Shown: in pieces, positions 21,931-48,554 of the stretch
Layout: every line of letters begins with the position of its first letter
How positions within the stretch are numbered: the first letter of the stretch is position 1
DNA from: Methylorubrum salsuginis
Lineage (GTDB): Bacteria > Pseudomonadota > Alphaproteobacteria > Rhizobiales > Beijerinckiaceae
Length of the DNA stretch: 64,000 bases
Assembly (NCBI RefSeq): GCF_900114375.1
Contig: NZ_FOSV01000007.1
Coordinates: 1-64,000 of the forward strand
Direction: 5' to 3'
The notes under the pieces: generated by a model
Database searches by the model: none
What the model was told of the DNA's origin: nothing
The model's input: the letters and a program-made list of their open reading frames with translations, nothing else
Program-made: the position numbers and the translations under genes

Positions 21931-21946
21931 ATTCTGATGCGTGAAT
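21931..21946. promoter_or_regulatory. ATTC-N8-GAAT palindrome before soxC
   Basis: ATTC and GAAT flank eight bases (TGATGCGT) in the 53-base gap between soxB and soxC. The spacing and half-sites match what I recall as the operator of SqrR/BigR persulfide sensors; a SqrR-type gene lies at 27224. It could allow soxCD to be controlled apart from soxXYZAB. Confidence 0.5.
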
Positions 21947-27223: not shown

Positions 27224-27577
27224 ATGCCGCTTCAGGCGGAAACGGTGACGACCGGCCCGGAGCCGGGCACGCTCGACCTCGATCTGCTGCTCGCCAATGC
27301 CCGCGACGCGAGCGAGCTGCTGAAGGCGCTCGCCCACGAAGCCCGGCTCGTGATCCTCTGCCTGTTGGTCGAGGGCGAGCGGTCCGTTTCGGAGTTGGAG
27401 CAGTTGCTGAACCTGCGCCAGCCGGCGGTTTCGCAGCAGCTCGCCCGCCTGCGCGCCGACGATCTCGTGGAGGCGCGCCGGGATGGGAAGAACATCTACT
27501 ACGCCCTCGCCCGGCCCGAGGTCCGCGAGATCATCGCGGCCCTGCACCGCGCCTTCTGCGACGCGCGGAGTCGTTGA
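27224..27577 (+). CDS. ArsR-family persulfide sensor (SqrR/BigR/SoxR-like)
   Basis: The 117-residue winged-helix repressor contains ELLKALAHEARLVILCLL and LNLRQPAVSQQLARLRADDLV. It has exactly two cysteines, Cys46 in LVILCLLVEGERS and Cys112 in HRAFCDAR. This pair sits where SqrR and BigR have their dithiol, which forms a tetrasulfide bridge with persulfides. It should therefore derepress sulfur genes when sulfide or thiosulfate is present. It follows soxS, in the position of soxR in Paracoccus-type clusters. Candidate operators lie around soxS, soxW, soxX and soxC. Confidence 0.9.
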   Translation: MPLQAETVTTGPEPGTLDLDLLLANARDASELLKALAHEARLVILCLLVEGERSVSELEQLLNLRQPAVSQQLARLRADDLVEARRDGKNIYYALARPEVREIIAALHRAFCDARSR

Positions 27578-29889: not shown

Positions 29890-30675
29890 TCAGGACGTCG
29901 CGGCGAACGCACCGGCGTTGCGGTAGAGCATGTAGCCGGCGACCACGAAGATCACGGCGGCGAACACCGTGTTGAGCACGCCCTTGTAGCCGGCGAGGCG
30001 GTTTGCGAGCCGCATGCCGAGGAAGCCGCCGAGGATACCGCCGGCGATGAACTCCCCCGCCACCACCCAATCGACCATGCCGGAAAGGGCATAGTTCAAC
30101 GCAGTGGCGAGACCGAAGGCGCCGACCGCAAGCAGCGAGGTGCCAACGGCCGTGATCAGCGGCATGCCGGTCGCGAAGACGAGACCGGGCACGATCAGGA
30201 AGCCGCCGCCGATCCCGAAAAAGCCGGACAGCACTCCGACCGAAAAGGCCACGGCAACGACCCTTCCGCTCGGCACCGGGCCGCAACCGACCGGTTCAGC
30301 CGGGCCGGGGTGGTTCCGTCGCCCGCGCAGCATGTGGACCCCAACGACGATCATCAGAAGGGCGAACAAGAACAGCAGGCGCTGTCCATCCACCGCCTTG
30401 CCAAGACTGGAGCCGGCCAAGGCACCGATGATCCCCACGAGGGCGAAGACGGCGGCACAGCGCCAGCGCACGTTACCGGCCCGCGCGTGACCGGCCAGCG
30501 TCATGAAGGCGTTGGCGGCCACGGCGAGCGCTCCCGTCCCGATGGCGAGATGCGGCTGGGCGAGGCCGACCGCGTAGAGCAGCAGCGGGGTCGCCAGGAT
30601 CGAGCCGCCGCCCCCGATCAGGCCGAGGGTAAAGCCGACACCGGTGCCCGACAGAACGGCCGGAAGTGCGCTCAT
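29890..30675 (-). CDS. TauE/SafE family sulfite/sulfoacetate exporter
   Basis: The 261-residue membrane protein has about eight helices and the TauE/SafE glycine-rich repeats GLIGGGGSILATPLLLY near the start and GFFGIGGGFLIVPGLVF in the middle, plus LAIGTGALAVAANA. The family exports sulfite, sulfoacetate or related anions. Placed beside the persulfide dioxygenase, which yields sulfite in the cytosol, export of sulfite to periplasmic SorAB is a reasonable role. The ATG at 30675 (MSALPAV) is one of two adjacent starts. An inverted repeat lies about 70-100 bases upstream. Confidence 0.88.
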   Translation of the reverse strand: MSALPAVLSGTGVGFTLGLIGGGGSILATPLLLYAVGLAQPHLAIGTGALAVAANAFMTLAGHARAGNVRWRCAAVFALVGIIGALAGSSLGKAVDGQRLLFLFALLMIVVGVHMLRGRRNHPGPAEPVGCGPVPSGRVVAVAFSVGVLSGFFGIGGGFLIVPGLVFATGMPLITAVGTSLLAVGAFGLATALNYALSGMVDWVVAGEFIAGGILGGFLGMRLANRLAGYKGVLNTVFAAVIFVVAGYMLYRNAGAFAATS

Positions 30676-32565: not shown

Positions 32566-32955
32566 TCATGGCTCGTCTCCGATCTGTCCGAACTGCGCAG
32601 CCTGACCGAATGCCCCCGTCCGGGCGTCGGTAAGGCGTGCCGGGCCGGGCCGGTGGGTGCGACCGGCCACGAGAATATCCTCGACCGCCTCCAACAACGC
32701 GCGCATCCGCGGGTCGCTCAGGCTGTAAAACACGACCTTGTGCTCTCTCCGCGTTGCAACGACCGCCGCGTTGCGCAGCTCACCCAGTTGCTGCGACAGT
32801 GTCGGCTGCCGGATACTTAGGTTTTGCTCAATCTCCGAGACGGAGCACTCGCCTTGCTTCAAAAGTGAGAGGATACGCAGGCGGTTGGGGTTGGCGATCA
32901 GCTTGAGCAGATCGGCGACCCGGTCCGCGGTCGCCTCGTCAGTTGCGGACACCAT
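32566..32955 (-). CDS. ArsR-family repressor
   Basis: This 129-residue winged-helix protein contains LLKLIANPNRLRILSLLKQGE and NLSIRQPTLSQQLGELRNAAVV, typical of ArsR repressors close to BigR. It has one cysteine, Cys37 in GECSVSEIE, and no second cysteine near the C-terminus, so the two-cysteine persulfide switch is incomplete. It overlaps the stop codon of the peroxiredoxin gene (TGATG), so both are expressed together, and converges with the SQR gene. It may bind the ATTCA palindromes near SQR. Confidence 0.85.
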   Translation of the reverse strand: MVSATDEATADRVADLLKLIANPNRLRILSLLKQGECSVSEIEQNLSIRQPTLSQQLGELRNAAVVATRREHKVVFYSLSDPRMRALLEAVEDILVAGRTHRPGPARLTDARTGAFGQAAQFGQIGDEP

Positions 32956-36516: not shown

Positions 36517-36903
36517 TCAGGCAGGATCGACCGATGCCCCCGCCTTGGCCAGGGCGGGGAAACCACCGGCGACATGGGCAACCGGGCCCAGGCTCATGTC
36601 GTTGAGCGTCTTCGCGGCCAGGGCCGAGCGATTTCCGGAGGCACAATAGAGAACCAGGCGCCTGCCGCCGCCGAGCTCGGCCTTGTGGGTCGGGCTTTCC
36701 GGGTCGGCCTGAAACTCCAGAAAGCCACGGGGCACATGGACCGCGCCGGCGATCCTACCGGTCTTGGCCAACTCCTCGCCTTCGCGGACATCGACGAGCA
36801 TCGTGTCGGGCTGGCCGAGGCGGGCGAGCGCTTCCTCGACCGACAAGGTCTCCACCTCGCGGTTGGCTTGCGCCACCAGATCCTTCGCGCCTCTCATGGT
36901 CAT
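36517..36903 (-). CDS. Cytosolic rhodanese-domain protein
   Basis: This 128-residue rhodanese has TMLVDVREGEELAKTGRIAGAVHVPRG and the active loop LYCASGNRSALAA with Cys87, a six-residue loop typical of sulfurtransferases. There is no signal peptide. It starts 11 bases downstream of the MBL gene at 36915, so the pair can move sulfane sulfur from low-molecular persulfides, in the way fused rhodanese-PDO proteins do. A conserved VAHVAGGFPALAKAG closes the domain. Confidence 0.9.
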   Translation of the reverse strand: MTMRGAKDLVAQANREVETLSVEEALARLGQPDTMLVDVREGEELAKTGRIAGAVHVPRGFLEFQADPESPTHKAELGGGRRLVLYCASGNRSALAAKTLNDMSLGPVAHVAGGFPALAKAGASVDPA

Positions 36904-36914
36904 AGCTTCCTCCG

Positions 36915-37784
36915 TCACTCGCCCCAGGCCGTGCCGTCGAGGGCGTCCAGCGGGATCTTCAGGTAACGCCTGCCGTCCGCCTCGGGCTCGGGCAGGCGGC
37001 CGCCTCGGATGTTCACCTGCAGGGAATGCAGGATGAGCTTGGGCATCGGCAGTTCGCGGTCGCGTGCGTCGCGCATGCGGACGAACGCCTCCTCGGTCGG
37101 GGTCTCGACGAGGTGCGGTTTCTCGGCCCGCTGCCGGGCCACCGTGCTCTCCCAGGCCGCCTCGCGCCCGTCCGGGCGGTAATCGTGCCCGGTGAAGAGC
37201 CGGGTCTCGTCCGGCAGGGCCATGATGCGCTGGATGCTGCGCCAGAGCGCATACGCGCTGCCGCCCGGGAAGTCGGCCCGCGCCGAGCCGCTGTCGGGCA
37301 TAAACAGCGTGTCGTGGATGAAGGCGGCGTCGCCGATCCGGTAGGCGATGGAGGCCAGGGTGTGGCCCGGCGTGAACATCACCTCGACGTCGAGGTCGCC
37401 GATCCGGAAGCGCTCGCCGTCGGCGAAGAGCCGGTCCCACTGCGAGCCGTCCGTCCGGAACGTGTCGGGCAGGTCGTAGAGCCCCTTCCAGAGCCGCTGC
37501 ACGTCGACGACCTTCTCGCCGATGGCGGTCGGGACGCCGGTCTTGTCGTGCAGGTAGCCAGCCGCCGAGAAGTGGTCGGCGTGCGGGTGGGTATCGAGGA
37601 TCCACTCCAGTTCGTAGCGCTCGCGCTCGATGTGGGCGAGCAGGGCATCGGCGGAGCGGGTCGCGGTCGCGCCGGACTTCGGGTCGAAGTCGAGCACCGG
37701 ATCGATGATGGCGCAGCTTTTCGTCTCGGGGTCCGTGACGACGTACTGGATGCTGCCGGTCGGCTCGTCATCGAAGCTGGTCAC
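36915..37784 (-). CDS. Second persulfide dioxygenase-like MBL protein
   Basis: The 289-residue protein has IIDPVLDFDPKSGATATRSAD, the metal motif THPHADHFS (histidines 66, 68 and 71 with Asp70), FTPGHTLASIAYRIG, IHDTLFMPDSGSARADFPGG (core DTLFMPDSGSA) and GHDYRPDG. It is related to the protein at 28684 but closer to the Blh/ETHE1 subgroup that keeps FDPKSG. The GTG at 37784 is the first usable start. Upstream the frame continues as ISDQTIEALRGHPIV, which looks like protein but begins with ATT, so a rare ATT start is possible. Confidence 0.85.
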   Translation of the reverse strand: MTSFDDEPTGSIQYVVTDPETKSCAIIDPVLDFDPKSGATATRSADALLAHIERERYELEWILDTHPHADHFSAAGYLHDKTGVPTAIGEKVVDVQRLWKGLYDLPDTFRTDGSQWDRLFADGERFRIGDLDVEVMFTPGHTLASIAYRIGDAAFIHDTLFMPDSGSARADFPGGSAYALWRSIQRIMALPDETRLFTGHDYRPDGREAAWESTVARQRAEKPHLVETPTEEAFVRMRDARDRELPMPKLILHSLQVNIRGGRLPEPEADGRRYLKIPLDALDGTAWGE

Positions 37785-37847: not shown

Positions 37848-38381
37848 TCAGGTGATGGAGCCGAGGAGTGGCAGGGCCCCGCGGGCGACGACGTAGAGGC
37901 CGACCAGGATGACGAGGCCGGCGAAGGTAACGGTCAGGGCGCGCTTGCGCAGGGCAGGAGCACCGGGGCGCTCGCCTTGGTCAGGCGCATCTCGGGGTTG
38001 CCGTCACCGCGCCCCTTGCGCAGCATCAGGCCCCCGACCACCAGCATCACGACGCCGAACAGGGCCAGGAGGCTCTAGCCGTCGACCGCCTGCGCGGCGA
38101 CCGAGCCGGCCAGCGCGCCGAGGACGCCGGCGACCGAGAACGCCGCCGCGAATCGCCACTTCACGTTACCGGCCCGCCATTGCGGGACGAGGTTGCCGGC
38201 CGCGCTGACCGACACCGCCAGGGCGCTGGTGCCGATCGCCACATGTGGCGAGGACACGCCGACGACGTAGGTCAGGAGCGGAACCGCGAGGATCGAGCCC
38301 CCCGCCGACGAGACCGAGGATCACGCCGACGGCCCCGCCCGAGCCGGCGGCAAGGCCGGATGTCAGCAGGCCGGGCGTCAT
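37848..38381 (-). pseudogene. Decayed TauE/SafE-family exporter
   Basis: Pieces of one TauE/SafE protein are spread over two frames. LTSGLAAGSGGAVGVILGLVGGG comes from the ATG at 38381, then SSPHVAIGTSALAVSVSAAG and WRAGNVKWRFAAAFSVAG in another frame, an in-frame TAG at about 38078, LLALFGVVMLVVGGLMLRKG, and last KRALTVTFAGLVILVGLYVV after a further shift. The total, about 178 codons, is shorter than the normal 250-260, so an internal part is also lost. The G-run near 38300 is the first frameshift. An intact relative lies at 29890. Sequencing error cannot be excluded for the shifts. Confidence 0.8.
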
Positions 38382-38824
38382 GCGTCGGCTCCCTGGACCG
38401 CCGGCTTCGGGGCTGCCGCCGGGAGAAGGCGAAACGCCAGGATCCCGGCGACCATGGCGGCGACGAAGGTCACCGCTTGCGCCGGTGCCACCGTCAGCAG
38501 GGTGAGCGCCGGCCCGGGGCAAAGGCCGGCAAGGCCCCAGCCGAGACCGAACACCGCGGCGCCGGCGATCAGGCGCGGGTCGAGGTCGCGCCGGGTCGGG
38601 ATCTCAAGCCGGGAGGCGAGCAACGGCCGCCCACGGCGCCGCGCCACGAAATAGCCCGTCGCCGAGACCGCGACGGCGCCTGCCATGACGAAGGAGAGGC
38701 TCGGGTCCCAGCGCCCGGTCACGTTGAGGAAGGCGAGGACCTTGGCCGGATCGGCCATTCCGGAGACGAGGAGGCCAAGGCCGAACAGGAGGCCGACGGC
38801 GAAGGCGGAGACGATCTTGGCCAT
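38378..38824 (-). CDS. YeeE/YedE half-transporter (PmpB-like)
   Basis: This 148-residue membrane protein has four helices and the YeeE half-signature: FAVGLLFGLGLLVSGMADPAKVLAFLN (core LLVSGMADPAKVLAFL) and GWGLAGLCPGPALTLL with its cysteine. It is the second half of a split YeeE transporter, with the first half 3 bases upstream. Such pairs (PmpAB) move a sulfur compound across the inner membrane. Its stop overlaps the start of the decayed TauE gene by four bases. Confidence 0.88.
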   Translation of the reverse strand: MAKIVSAFAVGLLFGLGLLVSGMADPAKVLAFLNVTGRWDPSLSFVMAGAVAVSATGYFVARRRGRPLLASRLEIPTRRDLDPRLIAGAAVFGLGWGLAGLCPGPALTLLTVAPAQAVTFVAAMVAGILAFRLLPAAAPKPAVQGADA

Positions 38825-38827
38825 GGC

Positions 38828-39253
38828 TCAGGCTCCGACGAGATGACGCACGACGAGGACGGTCAGGATGGCGACGGCCATGAAGGTGCCGGTGGCGACC
38901 ACGGAGCGGAGCGAGCCACGGCCGATGCCGCAGACCCCGTGGCCGCTCGTGCAGCCGGCACCGAGGCGCGATCCGAACCCGACCAGCAGGCCGGCGACGA
39001 CGAGCAGCGGGAACGAGGCATCCACCGTCATCGGCGGCAGGCTGCCACCCAGGCCGGCGTAGGCGAACGGCGCCAGGACGAGTCCTGCCACGAAGGCGGC
39101 GCGCCAGCCCGTCTCGCGAGACGGCGGGGTTAGGAGGCCGCCGAGAATGCCGCTGATGCCGGCGATCCGTCCGTTGAGGAGCAGGAACAGGGCGGCGGAG
39201 GTGCCGATCAAGGCACCGCCGGCGAGGGCGCTGACAGGCGTGAAGCCATCCAT
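38828..39253 (-). CDS. YeeE/YedE half-transporter (PmpA-like)
   Basis: The 141-residue membrane protein contains [28 protein letters not shown] (core [13 protein letters not shown]) and [26 protein letters not shown], whose [12 protein letters not shown] loop is the sulfur-handling signature of the first YeeE half. It pairs with the gene at 38378. The 250-base region upstream has an AT-rich patch (about 39320-39360) with CATTA/TAATG and ATGC/GCAT symmetry and is the likely promoter of the whole minus-strand module down to the rhodanese. Confidence 0.9.
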
Positions 39254-39323: not shown

Positions 39324-39358
39324 CATTACATTAGATGCCCCTTATTTAGCATTCACTA
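39324..39358. promoter_or_regulatory. AT-rich promoter/operator upstream of the split YeeE pair
   Basis: A locally AT-rich stretch has nested inverted elements: CATTA with TAATG on the outside and ATGC with GCAT inside, around CCCTTATTTA. It lies about 70-105 bases before the 39253 start. The layout suggests an ArsR-type operator over a promoter, but the arms are offset and the site is approximate. Confidence 0.35.
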
Positions 39359-39506
39359 ATGGAACGGCAAGCGTGAAATCGACGGCCTAATTTGGGAAGC
39401 GGTGAGGGGGTGCGGTAACGCACGGGCGCCTTCGCCTTTGGGCAGACGCCATCGATGGCGTGGCGTCGATGCCGACGGGAGGATCGTCTTTCCCCGTTCG
39501 ACCAGC

Positions 39507-43215: not shown

Positions 43216-43316
43216 GGGCGGGGTCCGGGATCGGATCGGCCCGCCGCGGGTCGGAAACGCAGCTTAAGCCAGGCTTAAGCGGGGCCCGGAGGATGGGGCC
43301 GTGAAGGGAGACACGC

Positions 43317-45298: not shown

Positions 45299-45640
45299 TC
45301 AGCCGAACTCCGGGCAGAAGATGTCCTTGAGGGTCGCCAGCACCCGCGCGGCCCTAGGGTCCTCCAGCCGGTAGTGGATCGTCTGGCTCTCGCGCCGGAA
45401 GGCGACCAACCCGTCCTCGCGCAGCTTGGCGAGGTGCTGCGACAGGGCCGATTGGCTTAGCTCGACCTCCCCGGCGAGACTGGTCACGTCCATCTCGCCG
45501 CGGGCGACCAGCAGGCACAGGATCAGCAGCCGCTTCTCGTTGGCGAGGAGACGCAGCAGGCGGGCCGCGTCGGCCGCCTTATCCTGCAGGCGCATCAGGT
45601 CGGTCGGCGTGACGGCGTCCATCGGTCGATGTTCCGACAT
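45299..45640 (-). CDS. ArsR-family two-cysteine sensor (BigR/SqrR-like)
   Basis: The 113-residue protein contains LLRLLANEKRLLILCLLVARGEM and ELSQSALSQHLAKLREDGLVAFRRESQTIHYRL. Its cysteines are Cys42 in LLILCLLVA and Cys109 in DIFCPEF, again the dithiol pattern of persulfide sensors. It converges with the kinase gene. Its ATG lies inside a perfect 37-bp palindrome, so it very probably represses its own transcription. It may also act on other genes with similar operators, such as the YeeE module. Confidence 0.9.
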   Translation of the reverse strand: MSEHRPMDAVTPTDLMRLQDKAADAARLLRLLANEKRLLILCLLVARGEMDVTSLAGEVELSQSALSQHLAKLREDGLVAFRRESQTIHYRLEDPRAARVLATLKDIFCPEFG

Positions 45641-45674
45641 GTTAGAATTACCTTATTTAGGTAATTCTAACATG
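45638..45674. promoter_or_regulatory. Perfect 37-bp palindrome over the ArsR start codon
   Basis: CATGTTAGAATTACC (45638-45652) and GGTAATTCTAACATG (45660-45674) are exact 15-bp complements around TTATTTA. The left end contains the ArsR start codon on the reverse strand. It is the strongest palindrome noticed in the window and the ideal shape for a dimeric ArsR repressor site. An autoregulatory operator is the simplest reading. Confidence 0.85.
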
Positions 45675-45675
45675 A

Positions 45676-46230
45676 AGTCACCAGCTGCGCCCACTTCCTT
45701 GTCGCCCTTTTTCCGCTTCGCCCGGAAGGCCATCGCGGCTCCCTGGTGCCGCCTTGCTACCGTCGTTCCCGAAGTGGCCAGGCAGAGCCACCACGGGGGT
45801 GATTTGAGCCGGTAGCAACGAATAAGGACCGCCTCAGCGATGGCGGCCCCTATTTACTCTAAGTTGCCGCAGTGCGGAACTTTGATGTTCGAAGTCAGAT
45901 CACTGGCTTGGCTATCAACAGCTACGCGTCGGCACGGGCAGCAGCGACTAGGCGCTGATGTTGGTGATCTTGTTCGCAGGGTTCACGGCACGCGCTGCAT
46001 CCGCCCGACCAGCGAGGCCGTGAGTACTTCTACGAGGTCCGCTTCCCGCGTCGTAGCGGACGACGAAGGCCGCAGTGTGGAGGGGCCGCTATGGGTCAGG
46101 AGTTCGCACACCGATTGTTCGGCTGCTCAAGACGGCGGAGGACGACGAATTGCCGGAGCAGCTGCACGACTTGGTCGGCCAGCTGACCCTTCGCGACGAC
46201 TGGGACGGCCCGGACCGCGAGGACCGACCG
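45676..46230. other. Stretch of about 550 bases without a clear gene
   Basis: Only the third 17-bp repeat (46092-46108) and short frames are seen. After the repeat a frame reads VRLLKTAEDDELPEQLHDLV, which looks like part of a protein, but it begins in the repeat and overlaps the end of the exonuclease gene. The stretch is probably a remnant region like 13570-14584. Confidence 0.45.
46092..46108. repeat. Dispersed 17-bp repeat, copy 3
   Basis: TGGGTCAGGAGTTCGCA, identical to the copies at 368-384 and 13922-13938, followed by CACCGATTGTTCGGCTG. The downstream sequence does not extend the similarity further. Confidence 0.65.
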
Positions 46231-48520: not shown

Positions 48521-48554
48521 AGAAGGCCCGCCGGATCGCTCCGGCGGGCCTTCT
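48521..48554. terminator. Bidirectional hairpin terminator
   Basis: AGAAGGCCCGCCGGA and TCCGGCGGGCCTTCT are perfect 15-bp arms around TCGC. On the reverse strand the hairpin is followed by TAGTTTTATG, giving a T-rich tail for the convergent gene at 48576. On the forward strand the tail is weak. It separates convergent genes. Confidence 0.85.

Follow-up and report, generated by a model that had tools for sequence, protein, structure and literature searches.

Why should a perfect palindrome of 37 bp (45638-45674) lie just before a gene for an ArsR-type repressor, and is the palindrome as such the element that matters? The DNA considered here is a stretch of 64,000 nucleotides from Methylorubrum salsuginis, called the window at its full length. 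The initial annotation had described arms of 15 bp around TTATTTA; the position and the perfect symmetry over 37 bp were borne out, whereas the arms actually measure 16 bp and the loop five bases, since the T and A at the two ends of TTATTTA pair as well. With loops of up to 12 bases allowed, no other perfect inverted repeat of the window is as long; 40 first-order Markov windows of equal length each had a longest arm of 9-14 bp, as compared to 16 here. The palindrome is real and goes beyond chance. The runner-up in the window (48521-48554), also perfect, has 15-bp arms and a 4-base loop and is G+C-rich and terminator-like.

The arsR-upstream DNA of 33 Methylobacterium/Methylorubrum loci (L042-L074), out of 64 loci, was overlaid on that of the window. 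What is conserved reads TTAG, then CTAAATNAG, then a less well kept CTAA, with six free bases in each of the two gaps. Of the 23 distinct sequences (34 sequences including the window), 19-23 carry any given specified base of TTAG and CTAAATNAG, and the spacers are variable. As aligned here, the conserved unit is a pair of tandem TTAG-N6-CTAA dyads, with centres 15 bp apart, and not a long palindrome. The first dyad (TTAGAATTACCTAA) occupies 45657-45670 and the second (TAAGGTAATTCTAA) 45642-45655, both on the minus strand, and together they form the predicted arsR operator. Among the related loci compared, the full perfect symmetry over 37 bp is a property of this genome only.

The whole 37-bp palindrome might still be the functional unit, whether it serves as a single extended operator or forms a hairpin in the mRNA that hides the start codon: its perfect symmetry exceeds chance in the window, and 25-bp versions are retained in three relatives (L043-L045). 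However, complementarity between the spacers stays at shuffled level, with a mean of 2.04/6 versus 1.95/6 for 23 distinct arsR elements and of 2.32/6 versus 2.30/6 for 25 distinct elements of the yeeE gene described below, in a set from which elements with more than six mismatches were excluded and in which the positions assigned in L056/L057 and L058 missed the true element. The overall symmetry is therefore under no visible selection, and the palindrome owes its great length to the spacers of the window's element, because these also pair. Moreover, the ATG enclosed in the palindrome (45638-45640, minus strand) is missing from 35/35 related loci, i.e., L042-L074 together with L137 (AM1 megaplasmid) and L138 (Methylobacterium oryzae plasmid). 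With spacer pairing not conserved and the ATG missing in relatives, the palindrome or hairpin as a unit was rejected and we regard it as very unlikely; by this comparison, the perfect symmetry is incidental and particular to this genome.

The same ATG had been taken as the start codon of arsR. It is present, but it probably does not play this role. The Met7 codon (45620-45622) is a start codon in 34/34 sequences, window included (33 ATG and one GTG), and is preceded some bases 5' by GGAA. The palindrome ATG having no counterpart and the Met7 start being kept, Met7 was taken as the likely start, so that arsR probably begins 18 nt downstream of the ATG first proposed and extends over 45299-45622 on the minus strand. 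A putative promoter can be placed on the same bases, with a -10-like box TAAATA between the two dyads (45654-45659, minus strand) and, at 16-bp spacing, a -35-like box GTGACT (45676-45681, minus strand) that agrees with TTGACA at 4/6 positions. The dyads thus placed cover the promoter spacer and the -10 box, and the predicted mRNA start would fall a few bases before the palindrome ATG. The best -35 match to TTGACA averages 3.4/6 for arsR (22 distinct sequences) and 4.8/6 for yeeE (26 distinct sequences), versus 2.4/6 in shuffled upstream bases, and the match at arsR is modest.

An inverted repeat sited between two genes may also be taken for a transcription terminator, a repeat or the remnant of a mobile element. 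A scan of the 5.32-Mb genome for GAATTAC-N9-GTAATTC, suggested in the initial annotation, returned a single place, the next best having two mismatches; the palindrome is therefore no general repeat. The 19-base core of the conserved unit occurs, with at most one mismatch, at two places of the genome, before arsR and before yeeE. The 29-base double dyad, with up to three mismatches, is found at two places as well (45642-45670 and 39331-39359), as compared to 12-13 for a reversed control pattern, loose matches with three mismatches being common by chance. With one genomic place for the full motif and two for the core and the double dyad, a repeat family was rejected. As each double dyad sits directly before a gene, the arm pairing is not conserved and the arms are AT-rich, a terminator, repeat or mobile-element origin is hardly conceivable.

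The predicted operator thus has one candidate sister site, at 39331-39359 on the minus strand, before the split YeeE module. The double dyad there likewise spans the spacer and the -10 region of a TTGACA-like promoter with 16-bp spacing (-10-like TAAATA at 39343-39348, -35-like TTGCCG at 39365-39370). Downstream, all on the minus strand, come YeeE part A with its Sulf_transp domain (38828-39253, start at 39253), YeeE part B with DUF6691 (38378-38824), a persulfide-dioxygenase-like metallo-hydrolase named by its likeness to operons in other records and probably belonging to the same operon (36915-37784), and a rhodanese-like protein, so named from its sequence, which is probably the last gene of the operon (36517-36903). 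The operon also holds a TauE-like gene (37851-38381, minus strand) that is broken in the window. Set against its intact L042 relative, it is interrupted by an in-frame stop, which L045 shares, lacks about 92 middle residues, and has its first 30 residues out of frame. Another TauE-like gene, with 55% identity to that of L042, is present at 29914-30594.

The protein encoded by arsR belongs to the ArsR/SmtB winged-helix family, with 52 bits to Pfam HTH_5 (cut-off 22) and 84.9 bits to NCBIfam HTH_metalloreg (cut-off 55). The cysteine pair announced as Cys42/Cys109 is there and becomes Cys36/Cys103 when counted from Met7; both residues are invariant in the 34/34 aligned rows formed by the window and 33 loci that we chose out of 64, and both align with the cysteines of SqrR in a sequence alignment to its solved structure. 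SqrR is also the best solved sequence relative (E 2.5e-21) and comes first in the fold comparison of a structure model with a mean pLDDT of 92. The protein was accordingly placed, as proposed initially, in the two-cysteine group of ArsR proteins that sense reactive sulfur, whose members carry one cysteine on helix 2 and another at the C-terminal end, as the window's protein does. SqrR, HlyU, YgaV and BigR are among its eight best solved sequence matches, as is the cysteine-free NolR. BigR of Xylella and Acinetobacter is a relative, yet the cut-off of the BigR equivalog (NCBIfam NF040642) is missed, with 78.6 bits versus 155, and the protein was therefore not filed as BigR itself. From sequence and structure model, ArsR is a repressor of the SqrR/BigR/SoxR type with a conserved cysteine pair, and sulfur sensing is its predicted activity. 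The window encodes two other ArsR proteins, in gene neighborhoods whose names are read from sequence. One (27224-27577, plus strand) has both sensor cysteines and lies near sox-like genes, and the other (32671-32928, minus strand) is without the helix-2 cysteine and lies near an SQR-like gene.

Which genes carry the operator was then counted over the 35 Methylobacteriaceae loci, a core with at most one mismatch within 200 bp upstream of a gene being scored, and matches that started after query residue 40 or had fewer than 100 bases upstream being excluded. Matches to the SoxR query were left out, most of them falling on the arsR gene already counted, with its start displaced. The core precedes arsR in 32/35 loci and yeeE-A in 32/34, and was found upstream of yeeE-B in 0/34, of the persulfide dioxygenase (PDO) gene in 0/24, and of the DsrE and rhodanese genes in 0/22 each. 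On the arsR side, the misses are L055 (three mismatches), L062 (six) and L058 (two); on the yeeE side, they are L052 and L062, with two mismatches each. In the 666,872 bases of the 35 loci, all 80/80 core matches fall in arsR or yeeE zones, near-symmetric sites possibly counting on both strands. Distinct sequences number 27 for arsR and 26 for yeeE; some of these loci share recent ancestry, and they are therefore not all independent. Two of the targets first suggested are favored by these counts: autoregulation, by an operator-like element on arsR's own promoter that recurs in relatives, binding itself being predicted, and putative control of the split YeeE module, by the sole other genomic copy found of the double dyad. 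Outside the family, the core precedes arsR in 20/33 loci (13/33 being without it), yeeE-A in 9/13 and PDO in 6/18, several of these sites being shared by divergent genes.

In L061, L063-L067, L071, L073, L138 and L144 the locus is more compact: yeeE follows arsR closely, no DsbD match lies between the two, and the operators before yeeE are retained. Two records of the plasmid collection contain most of the query, the best being the AM1 megaplasmid with 85.8% identity, and no closer copy was found in that collection.

Another regulator, such as the SoxR paralog (27224-27577) or the third ArsR (32671-32928), could own the element, the local ArsR being a bystander. The ability of the related sHdrR and SoxR proteins of Hyphomicrobium to bind the same sites, as stated in the portions of the literature available, is in line with this possibility, and so are the two cysteines of the SoxR paralog. 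However, the double dyad sits on arsR's own promoter and follows its ortholog: among 88 genomes of the same genus, it is present (at most one mismatch) in 24/24 with a close arsR ortholog (E below 1e-50) and in 1/64 without (Fisher p 1e-20, related genomes being treated as independent); with two mismatches allowed, some match is found in 10/64 of the latter. Furthermore, the window, sox genes included, holds no further exact TTAG-N6-CTAA. Ownership by another regulator is hence improbable, and the local ArsR is the preferred partner of the element. Genomic distance does not break the pairing: in G027, two operators lie 2.55 Mb apart, one at arsR and the other 138 bases upstream of yeeE, which has a single match in that genome, so that a shared neighborhood is no explanation. 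An operator also precedes yeeE in stretches of G026, G036, G050 and G062. G036 is an exception, as its yeeE has an exact double dyad (G036:C1:155098-155126, L143) and its best ArsR, about 14 kb away, is 52% identical; cross-use is therefore possible, and a second ArsR subgroup may read the same operator.

The DsbD operon had been proposed as a further target, and this proposal did not hold. The core was found in 0/22 loci upstream of each of dsbD, the dsbA-like gene, the L,D-transpeptidase gene and the kinase gene, and in 1/25 upstream of the response regulator, where the single case, in L053, is a remnant of 37 residues next to the yeeE operator of that locus. Instead, the interval between dsbD and the divergent response-regulator gene contains a direct repeat, CTTAAG-N5-CTTAAG (43263-43279), present in the window and in 22/22 related loci; the genome has no other exact copy of it. 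Control of DsbD by ArsR was thus rejected, and this box explains why DsbD stands outside the ArsR circuit. The PmrA boxes of S. typhimurium are given, in the part of the source available, as CTTAAG and XTTAAT with five base pairs between them (PMC3973317), i.e., CTTAAG and a second half-site after five bases, as at 43263-43279. The adjacent response regulator has PmrA as its best NCBIfam match, with 233 bits that miss the cut-off of 330, and is also matched by the QseB and QseC models. Judged by its sequence, the box looks like one of the PmrA/QseB type, and DsbD is most likely under the neighboring two-component system.

How does this element compare to the sites of known sulfur sensors? The literature on SoxR, on sHdrR of Hyphomicrobium and on YgaV, available in part, is the source of the sulfur-bridge mechanism adopted here. 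According to comparable excerpts, a yeeE/yedE/pdo2 operon is under the control of BigR in A. baumannii, and in Hyphomicrobium the YeeE-like protein SoxT1B acts in signal transduction to SoxR; that sensors of this type can be linked to YeeE was therefore already known. In Hyphomicrobium, SoxR and sox promoter DNA reportedly give two shifted bands, and YgaV of E. coli is described as binding its own promoter, with a footprint near the transcription start. Just before the start of E. coli ygaV (L136, 1175-1204), we read TTAG-AGTTTA-CTTA in tandem with TTAG-AAAATA-CTTA. These TTAG-N6-CTTA pairs have centres 16 bp apart, as compared to TTAG-N6-CTAA and 15 bp in the window, and lie in the reported footprint region as far as the source available indicates.

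The site of SqrR in Rhodobacter capsulatus is quoted in partly available text as ATTC-N8-GAAT. Compared to ATTAG-N6-CTAAT here, the half-site spacing is equal whereas the inner bases differ, and ATTC-N8-GAAT was not found at the arsR operator. Its only exact copy in the window lies between two genes of the sox region (21931-21946). As a SoxR site this copy is a weak candidate and was set aside, the pattern occurring at 12 places in the genome and, with one mismatch, six times in the window versus a shuffled mean of 9.4.

NolR of Sinorhizobium shares the ArsR fold (E 2.9e-17, fold rank 5), and its consensus is given in the accessible parts of two papers as (A/T)TTAG-N9-A(T/A) (PMC12445080; PMC8960804). 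Each dyad resembles this consensus; the yeeE copy fits it, whereas the arsR copy of the window has a G before TTAG, where 18/23 distinct relatives have an A. The residues Arg31 and Gln56 named for NolR (PMC8960804) probably correspond to the invariant Arg31 and near-invariant Gln57 of the window's ArsR, as judged from match ranges. On the contrary, NolR is without cysteine according to the portion available of the same paper (PMC8960804) and has a different regulon, whereas the window's ArsR has two invariant cysteines and is therefore not NolR. A literature search whose coverage took in few subscription papers, most being outside it, returned no paper joining Methylobacterium, persulfide dioxygenase and ArsR, none joining Methylobacterium extorquens, sulfide and YeeE, and none on a 'BigR box'.

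Taken as a whole, the palindrome very probably corresponds to the predicted operator and promoter of an ArsR repressor of the SqrR/BigR/SoxR type, with a sister site at the yeeE operon; from the sequence comparisons we infer both binding and persulfide sensing. When reactive sulfur is absent, an ArsR dimer would sit on each dyad and block RNA polymerase at the arsR and yeeE promoters. Persulfide or polysulfide would bridge Cys36 and Cys103, upon which ArsR would leave the DNA, and more regulator would be made together with the YeeE-type sulfur transporter, the persulfide-dioxygenase-like enzyme and the rhodanese. This type of switch is already known, and as read from the genomes it takes here the form of an unusually clean two-site regulon.

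What was a lone palindrome would thereby become part of a defined regulon of two promoters, whose motif is precise enough for bench testing. In methylotrophs, a split YeeE transporter and an operon for persulfide oxidation would be tied to a repressor of the persulfide-sensor type, and the ArsR/yeeE circuit would be set apart from the neighboring two-component/DsbD circuit. More tentatively, and with less than even confidence, we suggest that the tandem TTAG-N6-CTAA double dyad, with centres 15-16 bp apart around the -10, may represent a general recognition code, used from alpha- to gammaproteobacteria by ArsR repressors that sense reactive sulfur and also by the cysteine-free NolR, and that Methylobacterium may hold a minimal two-promoter persulfide switch even when the genes are megabases apart. 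If this general code were true, the regulons of the reactive-sulfur-sensing ArsR family would be readable straight from genomes.
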